Assembly: GCA_903866275.1 (NCBI GenBank) | Contig: CAIPMU010000014.1 | Location: 124,001 to 188,000, forward strand | Reading direction: 5' to 3' | Length of the DNA stretch: 64,000 nucleotides | DNA from: Vampirovibrio chlorellavorus | GTDB lineage: Bacteria > Cyanobacteriota > Vampirovibrionia > Vampirovibrionales > Vampirovibrionaceae | Shown: positions 590 through 40,109 of the stretch, piece by piece | Layout: each line of letters begins with the position of its first letter | How positions within the stretch are numbered: position 1 is the stretch's first letter | Notes under the pieces: model-generated | What the model saw: the letters and a program-made list of their open reading frames with translations, nothing else | Told to the model about the DNA's origin: nothing | Database searches by the model: none | Position numbers and translations under genes: made by a program

Positions 590-1783
590 TTACATGATCT
601 GGATAATGGTCTGCATGACTTCGCTTTGGGTGCGAACCACTTTACTGGCCGCTTCCAAACCGCGTTGGGTGACGATCATGTTGGTGAACTCACCGGCAAT
701 GTCCACGTTGGAGGATTCCAGTGAGCCGGAGTTGATACTGCCACGGGCGCCACTGTTGGCCGTTCCGAAGTCCGTGTTACCGCTGTTGGCTGCAGCCAGG
801 AAGTTGTTGTTGCCGTCGTACTGCAAACCTTCCGGGTTGGTGACGCTGGCAGACTGAATCTGGAGTTGCATGCCTTCCAGACCACCGGCGCCGACGGCTA
901 GACCTACACCCCCATCGAAGACGGCTGTGGCGCCGACTTCGTCTACAAGGCCACTGTCGGTGGCGGTTTGGTTATTGGCAGAGAACGTTCCACCTTCGTT
1001 GGGCTCGTGAATGAGTTCGGTGCGCCATAAGGTGGGATCCGATGGATTGGCGGCGACGGTGGCGGCATTGGTGCGTACCGAGATAATATCGCCGTTGCTG
1101 TATTTAGCCGCAATGGCACCATCGACCCCCACGGTGAAGCTTTGCAGGCTGACCGGGGTATTGGTCTGGCTGGTAGCGCCCGCGTTCATCGCGGCAAAGA
1201 TGGGGCCAGCGCCAGAGGTATCGGTACCAATGGGCGAGAAGTGGGTTTGTACGATGGCGCCATTGGCATCCAGATCTTTGGTGATCAGGAACTGCTCAGG
1301 TAACTTCACCCGGCCCAGTGTCAGGCTGCTGGTTCCGGAGACTTGAGAGGTGCCACGTACCCGGTTGCCAGAGCTGCTCACCAGGTTTCCGCTGGAATCC
1401 AGACTGAAGTTGCCAGCGCGGGTCAGGTAGTAGGCCCCTGAGTTGTTGCCGTTGAAGGGGTCGATGCGTTCTACCGCGAAGAAGCCGCCGCCGCTGATCA
1501 GCATGTCGGTGCTGCGGCCAGTGTATTGGGTGCCCCCTTGGCTAAAGTTGGAGGCGATTTCGGAAACCAGCGCGCCGTTACCGATTTGACGCGGGTTGGT
1601 ACCACCTAATGTTCCGTTGGGGGCCGTACCCCCGCTGATGGTGCTGGCAAATACCGTGGCAAAGTTGGCGGAGCTGGATTTAAAACCCAGGGTGTTGACG
1701 TTGGCGATGTTGTTGGAAATAACATTCAATCGTTGCTGGTTCGCTCGGATCCCGGACACTGCCGAGAAAATGCCTGAACTCAT
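590..1783 (-). CDS. flgE: Flagellar hook protein FlgE
   Basis: This protein forms the curved hook that joins the flagellar rod to the filament. The 397-residue product starts with the rod/hook signature (about residues 4-35, containing NNIANVNTLGFK) and ends with the matching C-terminal helix (SNVDIAGEFTNMIVTQRGLEA). The middle holds the FlgE/F/G-like segment with GGGFFAV and a serine-, threonine- and glycine-rich D1/D2-like region. The length fits a short FlgE. It is last in the order fliJ-fliK-flgD-flgE, which supports hook protein over the distal rod proteins FlgF and FlgG. A terminator follows the stop. Confidence 0.9.
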   Translation of the reverse strand: MSSGIFSAVSGIRANQQRLNVISNNIANVNTLGFKSSSANFATVFASTISGGTAPNGTLGGTNPRQIGNGALVSEIASNFSQGGTQYTGRSTDMLISGGGFFAVERIDPFNGNNSGAYYLTRAGNFSLDSSGNLVSSSGNRVRGTSQVSGTSSLTLGRVKLPEQFLITKDLDANGAIVQTHFSPIGTDTSGAGPIFAAMNAGATSQTNTPVSLQSFTVGVDGAIAAKYSNGDIISVRTNAATVAANPSDPTLWRTELIHEPNEGGTFSANNQTATDSGLVDEVGATAVFDGGVGLAVGAGGLEGMQLQIQSASVTNPEGLQYDGNNNFLAAANSGNTDFGTANSGARGSINSGSLESSNVDIAGEFTNMIVTQRGLEAASKVVRTQSEVMQTIIQIM

Positions 1784-1886
1784 AGGTATACCCTCACTGT
1801 TCTCTTCTTTGTCTGATGATGAACTTTGAATGCGGTTTGATGAATTTTCGTTGGCCTGGACGGGGTTAAATCAAGGGTTGATCTGC

Positions 1887-2411
1887 TTAGCTTGCTCCCC
1901 CTGTGGTGCTAGTGCCTGTTGTCGTGGTTGCTGGTGGCGTCGAGAGATTCTGGACTTTATCCAGGTCGTAATAGTTGCCGTTGATTTTGACCAGCGCCTT
2001 GCCGTGGGCTGTATCGAACTGCACACTGTCGATGGTGCCGGTGATCACTGCGGGCTTGTTGGTGGTTGGGTTGATGTTGGTTTGGCCGGAGACGCTGTTG
2101 GTGAAGTCCCAGGGGGCATCGATCACGCTGGCGGTTTTGCCCACCATGCTCCCGGCTTGCGAGAACTTGGATGCGTTGACCATATCTTTCATCTGATCCG
2201 CCTGTTCCAGTTGCAGTTGCTGGCTGAGCATCTGGCTACTGTCTTGCGGGTTGGTGGGATCCTGAAACTGCAGTTGGGCCAGAATGAGTTGCACAAAGCC
2301 GTTGCGATCCAGTTTGCCGGTACCCAGATTGGCCCGTCCGTGCTGGAAGTTAATCAGGTTGGTGTTGTTCTGTAGTTGAGTGAGTGTGGCTTGAGCGTTA
2401 ATACTGCTCAT
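1887..2411 (-). CDS. flgD: Flagellar hook capping/assembly protein FlgD
   Basis: FlgD caps the growing hook and guides FlgE polymerisation outside the cell. The conserved N-terminal FlgD motif is clear (about residues 35-70: FVQLILAQLQFQDPTNPQD, then SQQLQLEQ). The C-terminal half is short (174 residues in all, against about 220 in enterics) and ends in a threonine-, serine- and glycine-rich tail. The ATG is preceded by a strong AGGAGG about 5-7 nt upstream. It sits between fliK and flgE, with about 100 nt to flgE. Confidence 0.9.
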   Translation of the reverse strand: MSSINAQATLTQLQNNTNLINFQHGRANLGTGKLDRNGFVQLILAQLQFQDPTNPQDSSQMLSQQLQLEQADQMKDMVNASKFSQAGSMVGKTASVIDAPWDFTNSVSGQTNINPTTNKPAVITGTIDSVQFDTAHGKALVKINGNYYDLDKVQNLSTPPATTTTGTSTTGGAS

Positions 2412-2435
2412 GGGAATCCTCCTTGCCGTTGGGCG

Positions 2436-4376
2436 TTATGCGAGAATGCTGATGCGGCCGTTGTCGTGGCCGTTTGATGCGGAATTGCTTGTCGTGTTTT
2501 CCGATGCCCCGATTGCCCCGGTGTCAGTGCCGTCGGTGAGGTGACTGGCTGTCTGATTTTGGCTAAAGCCCGATTGGGACTGTCCGTTCATCTGACCGAA
2601 TAAATTGGCGCTGGTCGGATTCTGCTGGTTAAATTGTTGCTGGAATGATCCTTGGGCCGTGTTTTGCTGGTTTTGGGATTGCTCCTGTGAGAAGGTCTGT
2701 TCCTGTTTGCTGGCATCCTTGCTGCCGCCGCTTTCGGCGCTACCGGCCAGCACCACGCTGAGGCGATCCACGGAGACCCCCTGAGCGGCCAGCGTCGTTT
2801 TGAGCGAATCCAGCTGGCCTTTGAGCAGGTCGTGGCTTTCGGTGGTGCTGGCGATTAAACGGGCGCTGAGTTGCTGGTTGCTGTTGGTGGTCAGGTTGAT
2901 TTTGACTTCTCCCAGATTGTCCGGGTTGAGTCGGATGATCAGTTCCTTGTGTCCGTTTTTCACGCTGTAAGCGGTGCCTTCGGCAATTTGCAGCGTTGGG
3001 TTTTGTGCAGTGGCATTAAATGTGGGAATGCCATTGATGCTGCCGTCTCCGTTTGAGCCGGAAACACTGCCGGAACCTGTCCCGTTGAGTCCGCCAGCCG
3101 ACAGGAGGTCGGAGGCGTTGATTCCGCTGGCATCGCTTTGAGGTGCGGCGGTCAGGGCGCTATCCGGTAGTCCGTCCTGTTTGTGGTCTGGTGCTGATTC
3201 GATGTCGCCTTGCATGGCGTTCATGCTGGCCTGAATGCTGTTGAGCGACTGCTTGAACGTGTCGGTTTGTGGGAGGGTGGCGTTGGGCTTCCGTTCGGCT
3301 GGCGTGGTGTTGCCGACTGGCGCGTTCAGGACGGAGAGCGCTCCAATCGCTTCGGTCGCGATGGGCTCGGCGGTTGCGTTGGGTTCTGTCTTTGTTTTCT
3401 TTGCGGATGACTGGTCTGGTTGGGCGGCATTGGCCATGGCGCCGGAGAGCGTGAGCGCGCTGGCGCTCGTGGTCGGGTCGGCGGTGGCTGGGCTGGTTGT
3501 TTCAGGGGTGCTATTTGCCTCTGCCGTGGCTGCCAGTCCGGCAAGGAGGGTTTGTTGGGGACCCACTTTGCTGGTCTCCCCGGTGGGTGTTTGGCCATTC
3601 TGGCTGGTTGTGGCGGTGGTTGTTGCCGGAACGGTCGCCGTGTCCTTCAGCGCGGATACCTCAAAGAGGCTGCCTGTCGGGTTTAATGCGATACTGCTGG
3701 CCGTGGTTGGCAACACAATGCCGGAGGCTGCCGCACCTGCTGTGGGGTCAATGGGGGTGCTCGCGCCGGTGTCGGGTTGGGCCTCTCCGGGGGCTGTTGG
3801 GGTGGTTGCTAGCGGCGTGGAGAGTGGTTGTGCCAGCAACGGGGCGGTGGCTTGCAGCAGCGCCAGATTCAACGGTTGCGAATCCGTGGGCACTGCGCCA
3901 ATCGTTAAACTAATGTCTGGTGTTTCAGTTTTGGGTTTGTCTTCATCCGAGGGTTGTTCTGTGGATGCAGTATTGGCATCCGCAGCGGTTTTGGCCTGGG
4001 TTGGGTTGGCGGCGTCGTTTTCCGAAGTGGCGTTGGTCTTGTTTCCGGATTTTGCGTCTGATGCTTGTTCGGTGGTGTGGGTCTGTTTTGCTGCTGCGGG
4101 GTCTTTGGACTTTGTGATCGGGTTGTTCGAGTCGGCTTTGGGCTGATTGGTGGGTTCGGGGTCATCGGTTTTGTGGGGGGTGGCGCCTGTGCCTGAGCCC
4201 GAGGGATGGGCGGCCTTGGATGTGTGAGTATCCTGTGAGGATGCCTGCAATGCCTGATTCAACACGCCCGCAAACGGATTCTCATCCGAGCTGTCGGGCT
4301 TGACGGCGCTGGACCGAAAGGCCGAAATAAAGGAAGCGTTGGCGGATGCGCCGGTGACATCAAGTGGATTCTGCAT
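2436..4376 (-). CDS. fliK: Flagellar hook-length control protein FliK
   Basis: FliK is an exported molecular ruler that sets hook length and switches the export gate to filament substrates. The 646-residue product has a long low-complexity N-terminal two thirds (Ala, Thr, Pro, Asn and Gln rich). A compact Flg_hook-like domain lies around residues 470-560 (LIIRLNPDNLGEVKINL, then LLKGQLDSLKTTLAAQGV). A Gln/Asn-rich tail follows. This architecture is diagnostic even though the N-terminus is not conserved. The stop lies 24 nt before the flgD start. The biased composition opens long false reading frames on the other strand. Confidence 0.88.
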   Translation of the reverse strand: MQNPLDVTGASANASFISAFRSSAVKPDSSDENPFAGVLNQALQASSQDTHTSKAAHPSGSGTGATPHKTDDPEPTNQPKADSNNPITKSKDPAAAKQTHTTEQASDAKSGNKTNATSENDAANPTQAKTAADANTASTEQPSDEDKPKTETPDISLTIGAVPTDSQPLNLALLQATAPLLAQPLSTPLATTPTAPGEAQPDTGASTPIDPTAGAAASGIVLPTTASSIALNPTGSLFEVSALKDTATVPATTTATTSQNGQTPTGETSKVGPQQTLLAGLAATAEANSTPETTSPATADPTTSASALTLSGAMANAAQPDQSSAKKTKTEPNATAEPIATEAIGALSVLNAPVGNTTPAERKPNATLPQTDTFKQSLNSIQASMNAMQGDIESAPDHKQDGLPDSALTAAPQSDASGINASDLLSAGGLNGTGSGSVSGSNGDGSINGIPTFNATAQNPTLQIAEGTAYSVKNGHKELIIRLNPDNLGEVKINLTTNSNQQLSARLIASTTESHDLLKGQLDSLKTTLAAQGVSVDRLSVVLAGSAESGGSKDASKQEQTFSQEQSQNQQNTAQGSFQQQFNQQNPTSANLFGQMNGQSQSGFSQNQTASHLTDGTDTGAIGASENTTSNSASNGHDNGRISILA

Positions 4377-4487
4377 AAAGTCTCTTTGGTTCCCTGTGAT
4401 TTCTGTCTGTGGGGTGAACGCGGGGGTGAGGTGATGGGTGGTGTTCTGAACTGGAAATGGCTGGGGGCTTAGCGGGGAGAATCCGGT

Positions 4488-4946
4488 TTAGCCAATGTGT
4501 TGTTGTCGAATGGAGCGAGCGATGGCGATCTCTGCCAGGAATTCTTCTTCTGCTTTATCAATTTGCTTGCGGTACTGGGTGAAGTCTTTGTCTTTGAGCA
4601 GTTCCAGTGCTTTCTTTTTCACCATGGCCTGCTGGAGTTCGGTGCGGACCATCAGGAGTCTTTTTTCCTGGGCTTGCAAGTCCTGATAGGCCTGAAAGCG
4701 ATCCTGCTTTAACCGCCAGAGGTAATTGGGAAAGTTCTGGAGTTGTATCGGGTTGATTTCGCCTTGTAATTGGCTTTGCTGATCGCGCAGGGTCTGTTCA
4801 ATCAGCAAGTCCGCTTCCTGGATGCGGGTGAGGATTCTGGCTCGCTTCTGCTCCTCTTCAGCTACTTTTTGCTGAACGGTGTTTAACTGCTCGGCCCGGT
4901 AATTCAGGACGGTCTGCAGCTTAAAGTGGAATTGCTTCAGCGCGAT
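4488..4946 (-). CDS. fliJ: Flagellar export chaperone FliJ, apparent non-canonical start
   Basis: FliJ is a small coiled-coil protein of the flagellar type III export ATPase complex. The frame reads a typical FliJ N-terminus (ALKQFHFKLQTVLNYRAEQ) followed by a charged coiled coil of about 150 residues. No ATG, GTG or TTG occurs between the in-frame TAG at 4959-4961 and the TTG at 4806-4808, which would delete about 46 conserved residues. An AGGAG lies 9 nt before an ATC codon at 4944-4946, exactly where the FliJ methionine is expected, so I place the start there. The alternatives are a rare ATC start, a CTG two codons later, or a base error for ATG. fliK follows after about 110 nt. Confidence 0.78.
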   Translation of the reverse strand: MALKQFHFKLQTVLNYRAEQLNTVQQKVAEEEQKRARILTRIQEADLLIEQTLRDQQSQLQGEINPIQLQNFPNYLWRLKQDRFQAYQDLQAQEKRLLMVRTELQQAMVKKKALELLKDKDFTQYRKQIDKAEEEFLAEIAIARSIRQQHIG

Positions 4947-6665: not shown

Positions 6666-7991
6666 TTACGCTAAATTGCTGTTGGCAGAAGGCGTTTCGG
6701 GCAGGCTGTAAGGATGCACGTCTTGTGCAAAGTCCACCAGATTGCCCTGATACTCCAGCAGCAATTGACTACACGTAATGCCCCGCTGAGCGATTTCCAA
6801 CGCAATATCGCGGGCACGCCATTGGGTGGCGATGATGATCACATCCACCGGATGTTTCAGCAGGGCTTGCGGCGTATGAATCACTTGCCCGGTGCCCGGC
6901 ACATAGGTGCCTGCCTTGTCCGCATCGGAATCGACCACCAGCGGAAAGCGGGTCTTATCCACCTGATAGCGATTGATGAAGGTCGCGGCCTTGCCCGTGC
7001 CACCCCAGATGGCCACTGTTTTGCCACTGTCGGCGAGGGTATTGAGTTGGGCGATCACCTGTTGATCGATCTGCTTGGCCTGATGGTAAAAGGCCCTGGC
7101 GTTATCGGTGATGAGTCGTCCCGCTTCGCTGTGGCCCAGACGGGCGTAGGCATACACCACTTCATCCTCGTACCCGCGCGCGATTTTTTCCAGTTGGGCA
7201 TGGCTGCGGCCCAACAAGCGCCCCAACGAGGTGGTGGTGAAGTGCGAGTTGTGCTCGTAGAAAAAATCCACGGTGCGGCCCGTTTCAAACACGCGATCGA
7301 TGCAGGGTACTTCTATAAACAGCGCCGTGGGCAGCCCTTCCCATTCGGCGGCCACGCCCAGACTCTGTATAAAGGCTAACGGGTTTTCCAGATGTTCCAG
7401 CATATGTCGCACAATAATTAAATCCGGCCGATACTGGGCCAAGTGCACGGCGGGCTCAAACAGCTCCGGGTAAAATTCCACCAGCCCATCTTCGGTATCC
7501 AGCGCCCCATTGGGATCGTAAGCAATGTAGCGACCCTGAGGTTTTTGCCGGGCCAGCGCTTTCAGGAAGTGTCCGTTACCGGCGCCAATTTCTACCACCA
7601 CCGGGTTTTCCGGCAGCTTGGCTAAAATGAGTGCCTGGGTTTCCTGCATGTGGTCTTGCCACAAGGCCCCCTGGTTGTACATTAAATTGGGTTTGTCGCT
7701 ATAGGGCACATCCGCATACTGAAAGGAGCGGTTATACACATGCCCGCATTCCACGCAGCGTACAAAATCCAGTGGGAGTTTGGGCATGGCCAGCGCCTGC
7801 TCGGTGCTTTTGGGCCAGGCCAGAGTGGTCAGTGGCGCATGGCCCCCATCATAAAAATTGACCGCCACATGAAAGCCACAGGCCGGGCAGGTTGAGGTTT
7901 GCAGCCAATCGGCCAGCGTGTTGCTGGGGGCGGGTTGGCCCGGTTGATGATGCGTCGCTTTGTGTGCCGAAAAATTCAGAGGTTCAGCCAT
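6666..7991 (-). CDS. SAM-dependent sugar-type C-methyltransferase (Zn-binding N-term, Methyltransf_14-like C-term)
   Basis: The 441-residue product follows the three-part layout of deoxysugar C-methyltransferases. An N-terminal zinc module has CPAC near residue 36 and CVECGH near residue 79. A Rossmann SAM-binding domain follows (VVEIGAGNGHFL, about residues 126-137, with RHMLEHLENP later). The C-terminal domain resembles Methyltransf_14 (VAIWGGTGKAATFI). The family methylates carbon atoms of nucleotide-linked sugars; the substrate here is unknown. AAGGAG lies 9 nt before the ATG. The first 8 nt overlap the end of the GT41 gene, so the two are translationally coupled. Confidence 0.82.
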   Translation of the reverse strand: MAEPLNFSAHKATHHQPGQPAPSNTLADWLQTSTCPACGFHVAVNFYDGGHAPLTTLAWPKSTEQALAMPKLPLDFVRCVECGHVYNRSFQYADVPYSDKPNLMYNQGALWQDHMQETQALILAKLPENPVVVEIGAGNGHFLKALARQKPQGRYIAYDPNGALDTEDGLVEFYPELFEPAVHLAQYRPDLIIVRHMLEHLENPLAFIQSLGVAAEWEGLPTALFIEVPCIDRVFETGRTVDFFYEHNSHFTTTSLGRLLGRSHAQLEKIARGYEDEVVYAYARLGHSEAGRLITDNARAFYHQAKQIDQQVIAQLNTLADSGKTVAIWGGTGKAATFINRYQVDKTRFPLVVDSDADKAGTYVPGTGQVIHTPQALLKHPVDVIIIATQWRARDIALEIAQRGITCSQLLLEYQGNLVDFAQDVHPYSLPETPSANSNLA

Positions 7992-10314
7992 GCGAGGGGT
8001 CTCCTTGGTGATGGGCGAGGGCTTCGATGAAAAAGGCGGTTAGCTCCTCAACGACGTAGGGGTCTTCGTATAAAATGCCATTTTTTTCCAGAATCGAGGC
8101 TTGGGCCTGACGGCGGATTTCCGGGTGCTTGGCCCACTCACAGGCTCGTGCAACGTATTCTGCCGGGGATTGGGTGACGAATTGAGACAGCCCCATGCGC
8201 TGATAACAGGCCGCAGTGACGCGTCCGCGCATGAAGGCGCTGGGCAGGGTCACAATGGGAATGCCAAAGGCCAGCGCCTCATAAGTGGTATTGCCGCCGC
8301 CAAAATGCAACGGATCCAGCATCACCGTAGCGCAGGTTAGCAGCTGTAAAAATTTCTCCCGGCTGCAACCGGGCACAAACTGCACCCGATCCAGTACATC
8401 GGGCATGCTTTGGCTGAAGCGTTGCTTGAGCTGCTCGCAAACGGCCGCCTGACCGGGGTCCAGCAAGATCAGTTTGCCTAATGGATCTTGCCGTAAAATT
8501 TCCGCCAGAATGGGATCAAAGTCCGGGTGAAATTTATAGAGCGACTGCGGGCAGAGATAAATGTGATCCGTGTCGTCCCAGCCAAATTCCGCCCGTGGCG
8601 AAGACGGCCCTTGCAGTTGCGGCTTGAAGTAATACGTGGGCAAGCTATCCAGCAAGATCAGCTTTTCGCTATACTGCGTTTGCGCGTCATCCGGTTCCAG
8701 TGCCTTGCTGGAAATAAAATAATCGATGGTGGGAATGCCGGTAGTCACCGGATGCCCCCAGGTGACGCACTGCACCGGCGCTAGTCGGGTTTGGGCCAGC
8801 AGATAGCTGAATGGGTCCATGCCAATGTCGGGGTAAAACAGAATATCGAGTTGGGCGGCTTTTATTTGCGCCACGCTCTGCTGCAAGCTGGGGTAGGGCA
8901 ACAGATACACATGATCATCTGGGTGCATTTGCTGACTGGGGGTAAAGGCATGCTTGGTGGGCGTGGAATAAATATAGATCTCAAACTGTTCGCGGGAGAG
9001 CTGTTCCAAAATGCCCTGCATCAATTTGCCAATGGTGTGCTTGGGCGATAAATGCCCGGAGATAAACCCCAGGCGAATCTTCGTTTTTTGGGGTGGCGTG
9101 GTGGTGTTTTGGGCCGATGGGGAGAAGGGTTTCCCGGCCTCGGTGAGCGAGGGGAGCAATTTTTGGTACACCGCTGCCGTTTGGATTTGCAGGGCTTTAT
9201 CAGCGAGTCCCTGATAGGCCAGATAGAAATGCGCCCCGGAAAACGTGCCCACATGGTGCGCATCAATGGGATCGATGGGGCGTTGTAATAACACTTCTAG
9301 CCCGGCCTCGTAGCGCTGGCGCCAGGCGTGGAGTTCTTCGGTGCTCTGGTAAATCATGGGCAAGGCCAGCACCTGATTGAGTTGGGTGTTGGCATGGTGC
9401 GGGTGTTTCAGGGCCAGCGCGTCATAAATACGTTGGGCTTCCACAAAGTAGCCTTTGCCGCTCAAGGTTAGGGCCAGTTGCGCCAGATCGTCCCGCTGAT
9501 GGGCGTAATCTTGCAACAGGGTGTCCAGAATCTCCAGCGCTTCCGGCATGCGGCTTTGTTCGCTGAGCACGATGGCCAGCTGGGTCAGCGCGCCGGGATC
9601 GTGGGGGTGAATGGCCAGCGATTGCCGGTAAAAGGCCTCGGCATGTTCATACTGGTTCATTGTTTTGGCCACCAGCCCCAGCATGCTGTGCGCCCGGTAA
9701 AATCGGGGCTCTAGCGTAATGGCTTGCTGAAAGGCCGCAATGGCTTCGGGCAGATTGCCAAACTGTCGCAGGGCATTGCCCAGATTAAAATGTGCCTCCG
9801 TGTAGGTGGGCTTAAAGGCAATCGCTTTTTGATAGTGCTGAATGGCGATCTCGGTTTCTCCTAGCGCTAGATAGGCGTTGCCCATGTTGTTGTAGGCCTC
9901 AGGAATTGAGCGATCCAGTTGTAAGGCCTTCTGGTAGTGATGCAGGGCGGTGGTATAGGCCCGTTGTTGTTGGCAGGCATCGCCCAGTAGCAAGTGCACA
10001 TCCACATTGCGGCGATCCAGCTTGAGGGCGGTTTCCAGCACGACCAGCGCGGCTTCTGGATTCTGACTGGTGAGTAGGAGATTGGCCAGATGAAGCTGGA
10101 ATTCAATCTGCCGTGGTTTAATGGCTACCATTTGCCGGGCAAATTCAATGGCTTTGGGTAGCTCGCCGTTTTGTTCGCTGAGCACGCTACTAAGACGCAG
10201 GGCGTCGATGTTTTTGGGATCCTGAACCAGGATTTGTTGGTACAGCGCCCCCGCTTCGGCCAGTTGACCTTGTCGGTGCTTCTGTAGCGCGCTTTCCAGG
10301 GTCGGCGCCACCAT
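7984..10314 (-). CDS. TPR-GT41 protein glycosyltransferase (O-GlcNAc transferase/SPINDLY-like)
   Basis: The 776-residue protein has about nine TPRs over residues 1-320 (for example PEAYNNMGNAYLALGETEIA). A GT41-type catalytic half follows from about residue 400 (IRLGFISGHLSPKHTIGKL). The C-terminal donor-binding part contains DPLHFGGGNTTYEALAFG and PIVTLP, the best conserved GT41 segment. GT41 enzymes move a sugar from a UDP (or GDP) donor to Ser/Thr of cytoplasmic proteins, with the TPRs holding the acceptor. The gene is coupled by an 8-nt overlap to a sugar C-methyltransferase and lies about 2.3 kb beyond the flagellar cluster. Flagellin or pilin could be the acceptor, but this is inference. 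Confidence 0.85.
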   Translation of the reverse strand: MVAPTLESALQKHRQGQLAEAGALYQQILVQDPKNIDALRLSSVLSEQNGELPKAIEFARQMVAIKPRQIEFQLHLANLLLTSQNPEAALVVLETALKLDRRNVDVHLLLGDACQQQRAYTTALHHYQKALQLDRSIPEAYNNMGNAYLALGETEIAIQHYQKAIAFKPTYTEAHFNLGNALRQFGNLPEAIAAFQQAITLEPRFYRAHSMLGLVAKTMNQYEHAEAFYRQSLAIHPHDPGALTQLAIVLSEQSRMPEALEILDTLLQDYAHQRDDLAQLALTLSGKGYFVEAQRIYDALALKHPHHANTQLNQVLALPMIYQSTEELHAWRQRYEAGLEVLLQRPIDPIDAHHVGTFSGAHFYLAYQGLADKALQIQTAAVYQKLLPSLTEAGKPFSPSAQNTTTPPQKTKIRLGFISGHLSPKHTIGKLMQGILEQLSREQFEIYIYSTPTKHAFTPSQQMHPDDHVYLLPYPSLQQSVAQIKAAQLDILFYPDIGMDPFSYLLAQTRLAPVQCVTWGHPVTTGIPTIDYFISSKALEPDDAQTQYSEKLILLDSLPTYYFKPQLQGPSSPRAEFGWDDTDHIYLCPQSLYKFHPDFDPILAEILRQDPLGKLILLDPGQAAVCEQLKQRFSQSMPDVLDRVQFVPGCSREKFLQLLTCATVMLDPLHFGGGNTTYEALAFGIPIVTLPSAFMRGRVTAACYQRMGLSQFVTQSPAEYVARACEWAKHPEIRRQAQASILEKNGILYEDPYVVEELTAFFIEALAHHQGDPSHG

Positions 10315-11306: not shown

Positions 11307-11759
11307 TTAAAGAATGGTGTTGTGCGGCAGCAAGGGGTGTTTGGCGGTAATTGTATCCAGATTGCGGTGAATCATGACCGGGCGCTTGCAACGCTCCATC
11401 ACGGCGCTGCTGACACTGCCCAGCAAGAGTTTGGTCAGGCCGGTGCGTCCATGAGAACCCAGAATGACCTGATCCACATTGGCCTCTTCCGCATAGGCGC
11501 AGATCTGTTCGGTAATATCACCCAGCCGGGCCACGATGGTGGTCACGGTGCAGCCTTGTTCTTCCAGGGCGCGTTTGGCCTGGTGCAGGGTTTCGGTGGC
11601 ATCGCTCAAGTCATATTCGGCCGTAAAGGCATCCGGCAGGGTGGCGACGACTTCCAGCAGGTGAAACCCAACATCGGGGCGCTCCTTAAATAGGCGGGCC
11701 ACCCACTGTAAGGTGTTTTGCGCACAGTCAGAGCCATCGATGGGTAATAAAATCTGCAT
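11307..11759 (-). CDS. Universal stress protein, UspA family
   Basis: The 150-residue product begins MQILLPIDGSDCAQNTL, the usual first strand and Asp of Usp folds. It carries GSHGRTGLTKLLLGSVSSAVM near the C-terminus, matching the ATP-binding G-2x-G-9x-G-S/T signature. It is probably a cytoplasmic, ATP-binding stress protein. The start is at 11759 because GAGGAG precedes that ATG by about 6 nt; a longer frame is open but unsupported. The ending HRNLDTITAKHPLLPHNTIL is a short extension beyond the fold. It appears to be monocistronic. Confidence 0.88.
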   Translation of the reverse strand: MQILLPIDGSDCAQNTLQWVARLFKERPDVGFHLLEVVATLPDAFTAEYDLSDATETLHQAKRALEEQGCTVTTIVARLGDITEQICAYAEEANVDQVILGSHGRTGLTKLLLGSVSSAVMERCKRPVMIHRNLDTITAKHPLLPHNTIL

Positions 11760-12039
11760 GGTGTTCTCCTCAATCCGAATTCCTGAACAATGGGCCTGCC
11801 TAGCGGAAGCATCCACTGAGTGACCGCCCGTGAGGGTGCACGGCGCGTTGATGTTCATTGTAGGTCGCCGGCTGAATGGATTCAATCCATGTGCCATTGG
11901 GCAAAGCGGGTAGATGCATGGCACGGAAATTTAAAAAATGGTGTAGTCGCCTCCGGACAAGGATTTTGCTGTTGTGAGGGCGCTGAATTTCCAATTCGCT
12001 GCTTGCCAAGCCTGTTGAGTACGTGTTAAAAAATTTTTT

Positions 12040-12396
12040 ATGTTTGAAGTCATGGTTGAAAAACATTTTGCCGCCGCTCATCATCTGCTCCACTATCGGG
12101 GTAAGTGCGAAAACCCGCATGGGCACAACTATGTGGTGCAAGTGTTCGCGCAGAAAGATACCCTGGATAAGTCGAATGTGGCCTTTGATTTCACCGTGCT
12201 GAAGGTGGAACTGAACAAGATCGTGGATGATCTGGATCATACTGATCTGAACACCTTCCCGGATTTTAACGGTGAAAGTCCCAGCGCCGAATACATTGCG
12301 CGCTACGTTTATCAGCGCATCAAAAAAATGGTCCCGGAAATCAACAAGGCCGTTGTGTTTGAAACCCCTACCCAAAGCGCCTGCTACTTCGAGTAA
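12040..12396 (+). CDS. queD: 6-carboxy-5,6,7,8-tetrahydropterin synthase QueD
   Basis: QueD turns 7,8-dihydroneopterin triphosphate into 6-carboxytetrahydropterin in queuosine synthesis. The 118-residue length is typical. The zinc site is visible: FAAAHHL supplies the first His and NPHGHNY the HxH pair; the catalytic Cys is in GKCENPHGH. HTDLN and the closing glutamate region (FETPTQSACYFE) also match. No clear ribosome binding site precedes the ATG at 12040, where the upstream sequence is an A/T run. An ATG four codons later is the alternative. I saw no other queuosine gene here. Confidence 0.9.
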   Translation: MFEVMVEKHFAAAHHLLHYRGKCENPHGHNYVVQVFAQKDTLDKSNVAFDFTVLKVELNKIVDDLDHTDLNTFPDFNGESPSAEYIARYVYQRIKKMVPEINKAVVFETPTQSACYFE

Positions 12397-12724
12397 GTCG
12401 CGTTCGTTTGAGGTTCTATGGTTCGCGTAGGGTTTTGTCGTGTGCCCTTTGAAGGGGTAAGCTTGCGGTCGATCTCGCCGTGCTTTCATTGGTCTGTGCC
12501 AGAACCCAACGCCCGACAAGCTAAACTGGCGAAGTGTTGTTGTGCTTCAGGGTGTGTAATTTTTTGGATGCAGAAAGTTTCAGGTCAAAACCTGTCGCAT
12601 GGCGGTTCAACTGGCATGCTAGAGCAACGAAAGAACGTACATCCCTGGGAGCCCATGAGGGAATGGGGCTTGAAAGCTTTAGCTGGGCTCGTTTTTTGGT
12701 GGATTGGTAAAAGAAGCGCCTCTG
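12397..12724. other. Intergenic region between queD and rsfS (convergent)
   Basis: No gene is supported. A 138-codon plus-strand frame starts at 12418, but it runs antisense through rsfS and looks random. The region holds a likely terminator at 12649-12697. Confidence 0.45.
12649..12697 (+). terminator. Putative terminator downstream of queD
   Basis: GAGCCC (12649-12654) can pair with GGGCTC (12685-12690), directly followed by G and six Ts on the plus strand. The loop is long and can form an inner stem. It lies about 250 nt past queD. Confidence 0.45.
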
Positions 12725-13123
12725 CTAGGAGACTTCTTGCAGTTGGGGATCCATCCAGGTTTCTGTGGCGACGACATTGGCGTGGCTCCAGAAGTTTTCC
12801 AGCTGGTAAAACTGACGTTCGGTGCGGTGCATGACATGAACGATCACATCGCCGTAGTCCAGCAGGCACCATTTGTAGGTGCTGTCCTGTTCGGTACCCA
12901 GACGGACTTGTCCGCGTTTTTTGAAGGCTTTATCAATGGTGTCGGCAATGGTTCTAATTTGGGACGGACTGTCCCCGGAGCAAATTACGAAGTAATCGGC
13001 AATGTAAGAGACCTTTCCCGTATCCAGCACCAGCGTGTCGGAGGCTTTCTTGGATTCAGCCAGGTTAGCGGCTAAAGCGGCCAAGTCAAATGCGCTGATT
13101 GGTTCTTGCTGAGATGGGGTCAA
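12725..13123 (-). CDS. rsfS: Ribosome silencing factor RsfS
   Basis: RsfS binds ribosomal protein uL14 and blocks joining of the 30S and 50S subunits when nutrients are low. The 132-residue product shows the family core: VSYIADYFVICSGDSPSQIRTIADTI, then WCLLDYGDVIVHVMHRTERQFYQLENFW. The start codon is TTG at 13123, supported by AGGAGG 7 nt upstream. It follows yqeK by 21 nt, and this pairing is common across bacteria. Confidence 0.93.
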   Translation of the reverse strand: MTPSQQEPISAFDLAALAANLAESKKASDTLVLDTGKVSYIADYFVICSGDSPSQIRTIADTIDKAFKKRGQVRLGTEQDSTYKWCLLDYGDVIVHVMHRTERQFYQLENFWSHANVVATETWMDPQLQEVS

Positions 13124-13144
13124 AAGCGTTCCTCCTATTATTAT

Positions 13145-13771
13145 CTACAGGTGTTTTTCGGCACGAAGTTGGGTGACAAAATCGTTGCGGGCCTCAATGG
13201 TCCGGGGGTGAATGAGCTGGTGTCGTTCAATCAAATATTGAATGGTCGAATCCAGTATAAAGAGCATGGTGAGATCCAGGCTATGCGGGTTCCGGAAGTC
13301 TAGTGGGGCGGTCATGCGCTGGATATAGAGCGGGTTGCGCGTATTGCCTTCAATCTTGTCGGCGATATAGACGATTTTTTCAACCCGGCTCATCCCGGCG
13401 CGCCCGGTGGTGTGGAATCGAATGGCATTTAAAATCTCGGGATCTTCCAGCTGAAAGGTTTCTCGCACCAGCTCTGCGCCCACAAAGGGGTGCAGGGTTT
13501 GCAGCGAAGCCCGATCGGTGTCGTCAATGGGGATCTGGTGACGTTCACAGAAATCCAGCAAGTCCGGGGGGCGCATTAGCTTGGCTGCATCGTGGAGCAA
13601 GCCTGCAACGGCGGCGCGTTCACGCTCTGCCAGAGGGAGATTGAACTTCTCCGCCAGTTCCACTGCTTTTTCCTGAGCCCCTACCGAGTGTTCAAAGCGT
13701 TCATGAGACAACTGCTGACTGAGCCAACGTTTGGCATGGTCCAAATCTAAAATTGAAGTGGTCTGAATCAA
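13145..13771 (-). CDS. yqeK: HD-domain Ap4A hydrolase, YqeK family
   Basis: YqeK enzymes split diadenosine tetraphosphate symmetrically into two ADP. The HD metal site is visible: ERFEHSVGAQEKA gives the first His, AGLLHDAAK the HD pair, LHPFVGA the next His, and RFHTTGRAGMSRVEKIVYIADKIEG the later His and Asp. The 208-residue length fits. The start is TTG at 13771 with AGGA 5 nt upstream. It is in one operon with rsfS, the usual partner. Confidence 0.9.
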   Translation of the reverse strand: MIQTTSILDLDHAKRWLSQQLSHERFEHSVGAQEKAVELAEKFNLPLAERERAAVAGLLHDAAKLMRPPDLLDFCERHQIPIDDTDRASLQTLHPFVGAELVRETFQLEDPEILNAIRFHTTGRAGMSRVEKIVYIADKIEGNTRNPLYIQRMTAPLDFRNPHSLDLTMLFILDSTIQYLIERHQLIHPRTIEARNDFVTQLRAEKHL

Positions 13772-13887
13772 AACAGTCCTTTGCGCTTTTTTGCACTTTA
13801 ACTTTTGTATTATAACCGCTATGCTGCATGAATGCCATCCTCCGGGTGGGTAAATTGCCCAAGTTCGGATGTTTTGCGTAGTCGCGC

Positions 13888-37773: not shown

Positions 37774-38190
37774 TTAGAAGTTTAGGGTGGTTACACTGGG
37801 CCCTGAGGCTGTGCCGGTTACAGAACCATCTGTGTTATAGGTGTAAGTTGCCGTGGTGTATTTATTAAAGCTAGAACCGCAGGTTAAGGTGGTAGTGACT
37901 ACATTACAGCCTGTGTTTTTGGGGCCAAATCTAAGCACTGAAATGGTGAATGCACCTGATGCAACTGCATTTCTGGTTGCATAGCTGCTAAAGTCGGTTG
38001 GCGTTGTGCCTTGTGCGGCGGTGTAAATGGCCGCAGCACTGGTTAGGGTGCCCTTCATATCCTTGATCATAGAAGCTTCGGCGTTGGCAGTGGTATCGGC
38101 GAAGCGGGGAATGGCAACGGCGGCCAAAATACCGATAATGGCGATAACGACCGCGAGTTCGATCAGGGTGAAACCTTTTTGTGCTTTCAT
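37774..38190 (-). CDS. Type IV pilin-like protein
   Basis: The 138-residue protein has a class III signal: MKAQKG followed by FTLIELAVVIAIIGILAAVAIPRF, with cleavage expected after Gly6 and Glu5 of the mature protein present. The short globular part contains two cysteines (GCNVVTTTLTC) that could form a disulphide loop, and many Thr/Ser residues that could carry sugar. AGGAG lies 7 nt before the ATG. A strong terminator follows, giving a single abundant transcript. It could be the major pilin or a pseudopilin; no assembly gene is nearby. Confidence 0.9.
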   Translation of the reverse strand: MKAQKGFTLIELAVVIAIIGILAAVAIPRFADTTANAEASMIKDMKGTLTSAAAIYTAAQGTTPTDFSSYATRNAVASGAFTISVLRFGPKNTGCNVVTTTLTCGSSFNKYTTATYTYNTDGSVTGTASGPSVTTLNF

Positions 38191-38369
38191 TGACTGTCTC
38201 CTATTGACTAAACCTTACTTAACGGCTTGCTACACTTCATTGTTCATTGGGTGTTATTCAATACTCATATCGTGTTCTGCGAATGAATCACTCTTCCTTC
38301 TCAAAACGGAAGTATTGGGGTCTGATATTTATAGATTCGATTCAGTTCTGGTTTTCTGCATCGGTAAAA

Positions 38370-40109
38370 TTACCGATCTTTGAATGGGTAGGGTTTGGTT
38401 TTCGGGTGAAACCGGTACACGGAAATCCAGCCATCCGGGGTTTCCATGACTTGCGTAAAGCCTAGAGGATGTTGTTTCAGGAGTTCAAAATTAACCGGGA
38501 TGCTTTGGGTGGAGAACATCCAGTTGTTGTATTTGTTTTTGGCTATGGAGTAGCTGCTAAAGATGACATAACGAACGTTTTTCTGTTGGAGGATGTGATA
38601 GAGTGTCTCGGTCTGGTATTGGAGATGTTGTTGGATGCAAAGCCGGTTCAGCGTGGGGCAATGCTGATCCAGTAATACCTTAGGGTAAAAGGGTATAAAA
38701 TCCGGGAAGGTTCGGGATGTAAACAGGGCATATAAGTAGTTTTCGTCTCGATTGCTGCTATAGATTAGGGAATCGGGAGGGGTGTTTTTGCTCAGGAATT
38801 GGCTTGTCAGCTCAATATCACGCCAAAGATCGTGATAGGGGTTGACCAGTAAGGTATTGGGTACTGGTTTTTGGAGATAAGGCCATAGATGAATGGTATT
38901 GGTACTGATGATTAGCGTGGGCAAGAGGATTAAGGTTAGGGTTTTAAAGGCTTTTTGCCGTTGAATTTGCTGCAGAGACAGGCAGCAAGACGCTAAAAAG
39001 AATGGTAATATGACGATAATAAAGCGCGGATAAAACTTGAAGAAGCTCCAGCATGGCAGTACCAGACAATACAGGCTAATATACAGCCCACTGGGTGAGA
39101 ATTGCCGGGCTTTGAGCAGGGGGTAGGCTCTGGAGCCAATCAAAAACAGGCTGCCAAAACTTAGGCCCATAATGATGCTTTCAGAGACGATGGTGGCTTT
39201 CTGGCGAAAGAACCATTCCAGCATGGGGAAGAGTTGCACGGAAAAATTCCCGATGAGCTCCTGCAAGCCTTTGCTGTAGAGTTCCGGAAAACTGTACTCG
39301 TAGCGTAAGTCCATCTTGAAGGATTGAAAGTAGGTCTCCTGAAAGGTGCGAACCAGAAAATCGCCAACGGCATAGGTGGTATCTGGCCGACTGCCGGACC
39401 AAAGCACCCAGGGGAGCATGCACAGGCCGCAACCTGTCGCAAAGAGGATGGCGGCTTTTCGTTCTTTCCGGATCCAGAGCCAGATGGCGAGGGCTGCCAC
39501 AAGCACCAGCCCAAAGGAGCGGGTGTAATAGGCCGCGACGCTCAGCAGCATCAGTCCGCCAATTTGCCGGGGGCGGAGTGGTTCGGGGTTTGCGTGATAG
39601 TGATGGGCCAGCACGAGGGCCCCCACGCTCAGCAGCATAAACAGGGGTTCGGACATCAATTCAATGGAGACATCAATAAACCGGAAGTTGAGGCCGAAGC
39701 AGGCCACCAAGGCCAGACTCAGCCAGGCGGGAAACTTCAGGTTGCGCCGAAAGTGATAGGCCAACAGGTTTAATGTGCCCAGAGAGAGCAGAATATTGAA
39801 CGCCTTCAGCCAGACTATGTTGGCCGGAAAGTGTGGATTGATCAGCCAAAGGGCCGCCAGACACAGTGGGTACAACGGGGGATATTTGTAAAAGTAAGGC
39901 TGCCCCTCAATCCCCATGAGCCGGTAGCCGTGCCCGCTGGCCAGCGCCTTGGCGCTCATCAGGTACATCCCGTCATCGTAGAGAATACCGGCTACATCCG
40001 GGCGCATCAGGTAAAAATACAAGCCTCCCAGCGCGATGAGCAGGATGAGCCCCAGCCAATGCCACCGGCTTGGCTGAAAGCGAGCCTTGATCGCTGGATT
40101 CTCACGCAC
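38370..40109 (-). CDS. GT39-like polytopic glycosyltransferase
   Basis: The 579-residue membrane protein has a TM near residue 17-35 followed by GILYDDGMYLMSAKALASGHGYR, the catalytic DD-type loop of GT39/ArnT-like enzymes, and KYPPLYPLCLAALW. About ten hydrophobic segments follow. A soluble C-terminal region of about 170 residues lies outside. Such enzymes use lipid-phosphate sugars and transfer outside the inner membrane. The GTG start is used. It lies upstream of the pilin gene on the same strand, which hints that pilin or another surface protein might be the acceptor; this is inference. Confidence 0.78.
   Translation of the reverse strand: MRENPAIKARFQPSRWHWLGLILLIALGGLYFYLMRPDVAGILYDDGMYLMSAKALASGHGYRLMGIEGQPYFYKYPPLYPLCLAALWLINPHFPANIVWLKAFNILLSLGTLNLLAYHFRRNLKFPAWLSLALVACFGLNFRFIDVSIELMSEPLFMLLSVGALVLAHHYHANPEPLRPRQIGGLMLLSVAAYYTRSFGLVLVAALAIWLWIRKERKAAILFATGCGLCMLPWVLWSGSRPDTTYAVGDFLVRTFQETYFQSFKMDLRYEYSFPELYSKGLQELIGNFSVQLFPMLEWFFRQKATIVSESIIMGLSFGSLFLIGSRAYPLLKARQFSPSGLYISLYCLVLPCWSFFKFYPRFIIVILPFFLASCCLSLQQIQRQKAFKTLTLILLPTLIISTNTIHLWPYLQKPVPNTLLVNPYHDLWRDIELTSQFLSKNTPPDSLIYSSNRDENYLYALFTSRTFPDFIPFYPKVLLDQHCPTLNRLCIQQHLQYQTETLYHILQQKNVRYVIFSSYSIAKNKYNNWMFSTQSIPVNFELLKQHPLGFTQVMETPDGWISVYRFHPKTKPYPFKDR

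Follow-up and report, generated by a model that had tools for sequence, protein, structure and literature searches.

A 64,000-nucleotide stretch of Vampirovibrio chlorellavorus DNA (assembly GCA_903866275.1, contig CAIPMU010000014.1, positions 124,001 to 188,000; here called the window) carries two overlapping genes, one for a GT41-type glycosyltransferase and one for a putative sugar C-methyltransferase (MT). We propose, at a probability of about 0.6, that the pair works in the cytoplasm to place a methylated sugar on an appendage protein, for which flagellin is the probable candidate. The superhelix of tetratricopeptide repeats (TPRs) in the GT41 protein would bind the appendage subunit before its export, and the GT-B domain would move a nucleotide-activated sugar onto a serine or threonine, presumably in O-linkage. 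The MT would C-methylate this sugar before the transfer, most likely as a nucleotide-linked 4-keto sugar; methylation after the transfer would also be allowed, given the repeated fusions of GT41 and MT. In a flagellated host of the Vampirovibrionales type, the likeliest acceptor would be flagellin and the second choice type IV pilin. The features of the pair, in window positions, are as follows.

10314 to 7984, minus strand: gene for the GT41 (OGT/SPINDLY-like) protein glycosyltransferase, upstream member of the pair; ATG at 10314, stop at 7984, 776 residues, from the open reading frame (ORF) and Pfam
Residues about 1 to 303 of the GT41 protein: TPR superhelix, from Pfam TPR models and paired helices at 2 to 303 in the AlphaFold model
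Residues about 410 to 770 of the GT41 protein: GT-B domain
7991 to 6666, minus strand: gene for the S-adenosylmethionine (SAM) enzyme of the sugar C3-methyltransferase type (MT), downstream member; ATG at 7991, stop at 6666, 441 residues
MT protein: Cys4 N-terminal part, SAM domain and C-terminal Rossmann-like Methyltransf_14 domain
7984 to 7991, minus strand: overlap of the two reading frames, 8 nucleotides

Domains, folds and catalytic positions

The 8-nucleotide overlap had already been described in the first-pass annotation of the sequence, and the two ORFs indeed share positions 7984 to 7991; the genes are likely to be translationally coupled by it. The layouts given there, TPRs plus GT41 for the first gene and a zinc part, a Rossmann domain and Methyltransf_14 for the second, were borne out as well. 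In the upstream protein, Pfam TPR models matched (TPR_1 at 1.5e-40) together with PF13844 Glyco_transf_41 (8.4e-22, 77.5 bits against a cut-off of 25). In the MT, PF13489 (2e-14) and PF08484 Methyltransf_14, the C-terminal domain of C-methyltransferases (1.2e-13), were both found above their cut-offs. No Pfam model matched the N-terminal Cys4 part of the window MT, where the cysteines C35, C38, C79 and C82 occur in every one of 15 aligned relatives and fit a predicted zinc-binding part.

The AlphaFold model of the GT41 protein (11 sequences) reached a mean predicted local distance difference test score (pLDDT) of 88.3, and its best fold matches were SPINDLY and human OGT. Residues H426 and K594, which we take to be the active-site histidine and the donor-binding lysine, match the equivalent residues of XcOGT in the alignment. 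Both are conserved in all nine rows of alignment A2; in the 11 rows of alignment A5, K594 is found in every row and H426 in eight. The GT row of locus L113 was left out of the fold alignment since its ORF is in the wrong frame. The Pfam match, the TPRs and the histidine and lysine positions all agree with a predicted sugar-to-protein transferase of the GT41 family.

For the MT, the AlphaFold model (15 sequences) had a mean pLDDT of 87.0. The only sequence matches in the PDB were MtmC, KijD1 and TcaB9, which we take to be antibiotic-sugar enzymes. A Foldseek search with the model returned these sugar C3-methyltransferases in all of its first 18 rows, followed by a large drop in E-value. The match extends over the full length with a VIA Z of about 20 and a whole-chain root mean square deviation (rmsd) of about 27, presumably because the orientation of the domains differs. 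The positions of His181, Glu224 and His225 of TcaB9 correspond to H200, E246 and H247 of the MT and are invariant in 15 of 15 rows; we assume that these residues have the same active-site roles as in TcaB9. Nothing usable was found in the literature on TcaB9 mutants. By sequence and model, the window MT is best assigned to the sugar C3-methyltransferase type and is predicted to act on a nucleotide-linked 4-keto sugar. The enzyme types named in the first-pass annotation, a GT41 glycosyltransferase and a sugar C-methyltransferase, agree with Pfam, the PDB matches and the fold searches.

Recurrence of the pair and fusions of its genes

A species-genome collection was scanned with the MT profile and gave 36 loci, 34 of them close (48-75% identity) and two distant ones from Paenibacillus (L121 and L122, 25-27% identity) that are excluded from the 34. 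The close family is tight and spread over many phyla. GT41 models matched at 23 of the 34 loci, and at eight (L092, L093, L096, L097, L098, L100, L111 and L120) GT41 and MT are in one ORF. Two further close members were present in a sample of 398 Pseudomonadota genomes: G742 has a GT41-MT pair overlapping by 4 nucleotides, and G580 encodes a fusion of reverse order, MT-TPR-GT41, in a single frame of 1315 residues. The opposite orders of the fusions point to two fusion origins. The close family was also carried by nine of the 386 genomes of a Cyanobacteriota sample, among them G282 with an MT-GT41 pair overlapping by 4 nucleotides. The recurrence of GT41-MT adjacency in other genomes puts the pairing far beyond chance. 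The MT tree had 34 rows, with the short pieces L111, L118 and L120 omitted and the window and two Paenibacillus rows added.

Linkage to flagellar filament genes

The 34 close loci were searched with flagellar seeds by tblastn within 10 kb. Filament genes were found at 12 of them (L089, L092, L093, L098-L104, L110 and L114), and Pfam confirmed flagellin, FliW, FliD, FliS or FlgK at L092, L099, L104, L110 and L114. The 12 loci fall on several branches of the tree and in five phyla: eight in Planctomycetota and one each in Vampirovibrio, Nitrospinota, Acidobacteriota and Myxococcota. The Gimesia locus L092 has the order fliC-[GT41::MT]-sulfotransferase-like-PhyH-TylF-fliD-fliS, and in a metagenome-assembled genome of Nitrospinota an MT without a GT41 match closes a run of flagellar genes. 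The occurrence of the pair beside fliC in relatives, which had been proposed as a check of the flagellar role, was therefore observed.

A second count of the linkage used the flagellin model PF00669: 6 of 29 genomes had a match no more than 10 kb away, where about 0.19 were expected (P about 2e-8 under random placement, with genomes treated as independent). When near-duplicates were dropped, the count was 5 of 24 (P about 4e-7). The set of 29 omits the Vampirovibrionales loci L088, L089, L090, L094, L111, L118 and L119 and includes the two Paenibacillus genomes, one of which (G144) is among the six.

Two side observations belong to these loci. At L092, the interval from the fusion to fliD (11421-13847) contains weakly matching sulfotransferase-like, PhyH and TylF-type genes, whose products may modify the filament glycan further. 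At the Paenibacillus locus L121, flgL, fliC, fliD and fliS are nearby.

The pair within Vampirovibrionales

Relatives of the pair were also present in metagenome-assembled genomes of Vampirovibrionales. Among the 18 genomes of the order, a close MT was found in seven: the source genome G000 (3.0 Mb in 20 contigs), G002, G005, G006, G007, G014 and G016. GT41 adjoins the MT in G000, G005, G007 and G014, and the two share one ORF in G002. The locus is cut by contig ends in G006 and for one copy in G016, and upstream of the other G016 copy no GT41 is present. The genes that flank the pair differ in every genome of the order.

G006, a relative from the same taxonomic family as the source genome, has its copies close to flagellin genes. 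On contig C108 two GT41 genes follow each other, the first beginning some 0.5 kb away from a flagellin gene; the contig ends 38 nucleotides past the second GT41 stop, and an ATG lies within these bases. On contig C142 the MT is about 0.5 kb from another flagellin, with the contig end inside the MT. A third GT41, on contig C69, has a pair of flagellin genes about 0.9 kb away. All three GT41 genes and the MT lie within about 1 kb of a flagellin or of a gene directly between. The broken contigs are most simply read as GT41-GT41-MT, a cassette that would stand between the two flagellins of this genome. No sequence overlap between the C108 and C142 ends was found; what fits is the start codon after the second GT41 stop. 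Tandem flagellins with similar neighbours are present in G000, G002 and G007, with no pair between them.

In G007, the GT41-MT pair (L059, 16226-19545) is at the end of the 20,013-bp contig C6, which otherwise matches phage families. The genes include those for RNA polymerase, DNA polymerase, a head-tail adaptor and an amidase, and of 10 proteins scanned, 7 have matches in PHROGs. The pair has a GC content of 0.39-0.40, compared with about 0.46-0.53 for the other genes. By eye, the contig end resembles the start of an IS1-type InsA. A phage-borne origin in general was rejected, as relatives of the pair were not found among viral contigs: 17 pattern matches for the MT there included no relative, and GT41 gave no pattern match. 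GenBank phages contributed only two records at 21-24% identity, and plasmids 88 records with at most 27.5% identity among the matches listed.

Donor sugar

No sugar-nucleotide genes were seen by ORF inspection beside the pair in the window, G005, G007, contig C47 of G014 or G002. More distant MT homologues, at about 150-175 bits, are found within clusters that contain CDP-glucose 4,6-dehydratase, as judged mostly by eye and by NCBIfam for L159. A consistent tie of the pair to small-molecule sugar clusters, named at the outset as a finding that would speak against protein glycosylation, was not seen for the close family; the distant homologues, as just noted, have CDP-sugar genes around them. 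NeuB is encoded in all seven MT-bearing Vampirovibrionales (G000 and six others) and is absent from 4 of 15 MT-family genomes, so that a nonulosonic acid would not be a general donor.

A further GT41 in G014 (contig C133, L077, 8312-15223) overlaps a glucose-1-phosphate cytidylyltransferase gene by 4 nucleotides, which is followed by genes for a CDP-glucose 4,6-dehydratase, a C-methyltransferase homologue and an epimerase. This cluster is a candidate for a complete glycosylation operon and may model how a GT41 could be supplied with a C-methylated 4-keto sugar.

Acceptor and chemistry of the methyltransferase

Several observations weigh against flagellin glycosylation with a C-methylated sugar. 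The window pair is not located among fliC or fliD genes and has only hook genes nearby. Filament genes near the pair are absent in six of the seven MT-bearing Vampirovibrionales (all but G006), and flagellin is present in 18 of 18 genomes of the order whereas the MT is found in only seven. At 22 of the 34 close loci no filament gene was found in the available sequence, many of the contigs being short. PF00669 was unmatched in 7 of the 29 family-bearing genomes, including Desulfonema magnum, three Desulfobacterales and Xenococcus, and no flagellin match was obtained for G282 with its overlapping pair. In five of the nine Cyanobacteriota carriers, all of one family (f14), the MT adjoins type IV pilus assembly genes and has no adjacent GT41. 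No sigma-28-like promoter signal was found for the pair; this signal is also weak at the flagellins and hence uninformative. Within the MT itself, the position of TcaB9 Tyr222 is a phenylalanine in the window protein and in 10 of the 15 rows, and a tyrosine in five.

It is therefore conceivable, at odds that we consider low but appreciable, that the chemistry is the same and the main acceptor is type IV pilin, an S-layer protein or another surface protein, the flagellin linkage being one specialisation. In all five f14 genomes (L142, L143, L144, L145 and L146) the MT has type IV pilus assembly genes next to it; Pfam identified prepilin peptidase, PilM, PilN, PilO and secretin at L142 and prepilin peptidase at L146, and the other loci were judged by eye. 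The overlapping pair of G282, the GT41 and MT genes of Desulfobacterota genomes without a flagellin match and a pilin-like gene with an N-terminal methylation motif in the window (37774-38190) are in line with such acceptors. However, the type IV pilus link is seen in one lineage and without an adjacent GT41, while flagellar links occur in five phyla. The f14 genomes all have a PF00669 match elsewhere (5 of 5), in G170 only a single weak one. Of the initial proposal that the sugar may be put on flagellin or another acceptor, the flagellar linkage in relatives stands, whereas a role restricted to flagellin does not agree with the flagellin-less carriers and the type IV pilus link.

We consider it rather unlikely that the methyl group goes not to a sugar carbon but, by O- or N-methylation, to the acceptor protein or a different group of the glycan. 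The mixed occupancy of the Tyr222 position and the fusion of the MT to a protein-modifying enzyme would suit this, but the invariant equivalents of His181, Glu224 and His225 and the full-length matches to sugar C3-methyltransferases only argue for C-methylation. That the MT makes a branched sugar for polysaccharides or small molecules, with GT41 as an incidental neighbour, is highly improbable: its fold is that of the antibiotic-sugar enzymes, its distant homologues lie in dehydratase clusters and the Xenococcus MT is beside an epimerase, but adjacency and fusion to GT41 recur in both domain orders and the pair itself has no sugar-nucleotide genes beside it.

Neighbouring genes in the window

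Outside the pair, the nearest flagellar genes form a hook block, also on the minus strand, that lies about 1.9 kb past the MT stop.

590 to 4808, minus strand: flgE, flgD, fliK and fliJ, from Pfam and NCBIfam; context only

The first-pass annotation had taken these genes as support for a flagellar role. A search based on flgE found the flgE-flgD-fliK-fliJ block in five of five genus members, with the pair upstream of fliJ only in G000 and absent there in the other four; the hook genes were consequently rejected as a functional clue. The flagellin genes of G000 are on contigs other than that of the window. A second GT41 paralogue of G000 (contig C18, L066, 15059-17119) is near a TadE-like gene and has no adjacent MT. 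The pilin-like gene of the window stands beside an ORF of 579 residues resembling a membrane protein (together 37774-40109), which has no Pfam match and is possibly a GT-C pilin glycosyltransferase.

Comparison with known systems

In Caulobacter crescentus, flagellins are glycosylated in the cytoplasm by FlmG, whose N-terminal TPR part binds them and whose C-terminal part is GT-B, according to the available text of PMC7591256; the window GT41 protein has the same order of TPR and GT-B parts. FlmG uses pseudaminic acid, and that text nowhere uses the word methyltransferase. The present GT41 has a C-methyltransferase as a separate partner or fused to it, and NeuB is not general in the family. 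The available part of PMC4875605 describes eleven GT41 types in enterobacterial flagellin glycosylation islands, nearly all with a methyltransferase domain, so that GT41/SPINDLY-domain proteins with a methyltransferase in the fliC region are already published. The domain is labelled there only as AdoMet_MTases cd02440, and the window genes differ in being separate and not beside fliC. For Clostridium, other flagellin glycosyltransferases with TPRs are described and no GT41 in the part of PMC13317340 available.

SPINDLY and human OGT share the TPR superhelix, the GT-B domain and, through the XcOGT alignment, the conserved active-site histidine and lysine with the window protein, at 17-20% identity over the fold. 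MtmC, KijD1 and TcaB9 share with the MT the three-part layout, the zinc-type cysteines and the His/Glu/His positions. They differ by an identity of about 20%, the phenylalanine of the window MT at the Tyr222 position and the domain orientation. The identity as a C3-methyltransferase, the separate and twice-fused forms, the spread across phyla and the type IV pilus link were not found in the literature as far as it was accessible. Searches on Vampirovibrio flagellin, on flagellin with C-methyltransferase and on planctomycete flagellin glycosylation gave nothing relevant among the papers listed.

A wider proposal, which we put forward tentatively and with the odds somewhat against it, is that the pair represents, in its unfused state, a conserved unit whose parts were joined on at least two occasions in opposite orders and which puts a C-methylated, branched sugar onto flagellin or pilin inside the cytoplasm. 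It would bring the branched-sugar chemistry of antibiotics to appendages in at least seven phyla, with a constant MT and a TPR-GT41 part that varies with the acceptor, and would behave as a mobile cassette that moved into the gap between tandem flagellins in G006 and onto the contig with T7-like phage genes in G007. If this is true, an FFYEH-type MT beside or fused to GT41 would be a sequence marker for a widespread form of cytoplasmic flagellin or pilin glycosylation in little-studied phyla. It would link FlmG, the enterobacterial GT41-methyltransferase proteins and the antibiotic-sugar C3-methyltransferases, and it suggests that bacterial appendages may carry a methyl-branched sugar.

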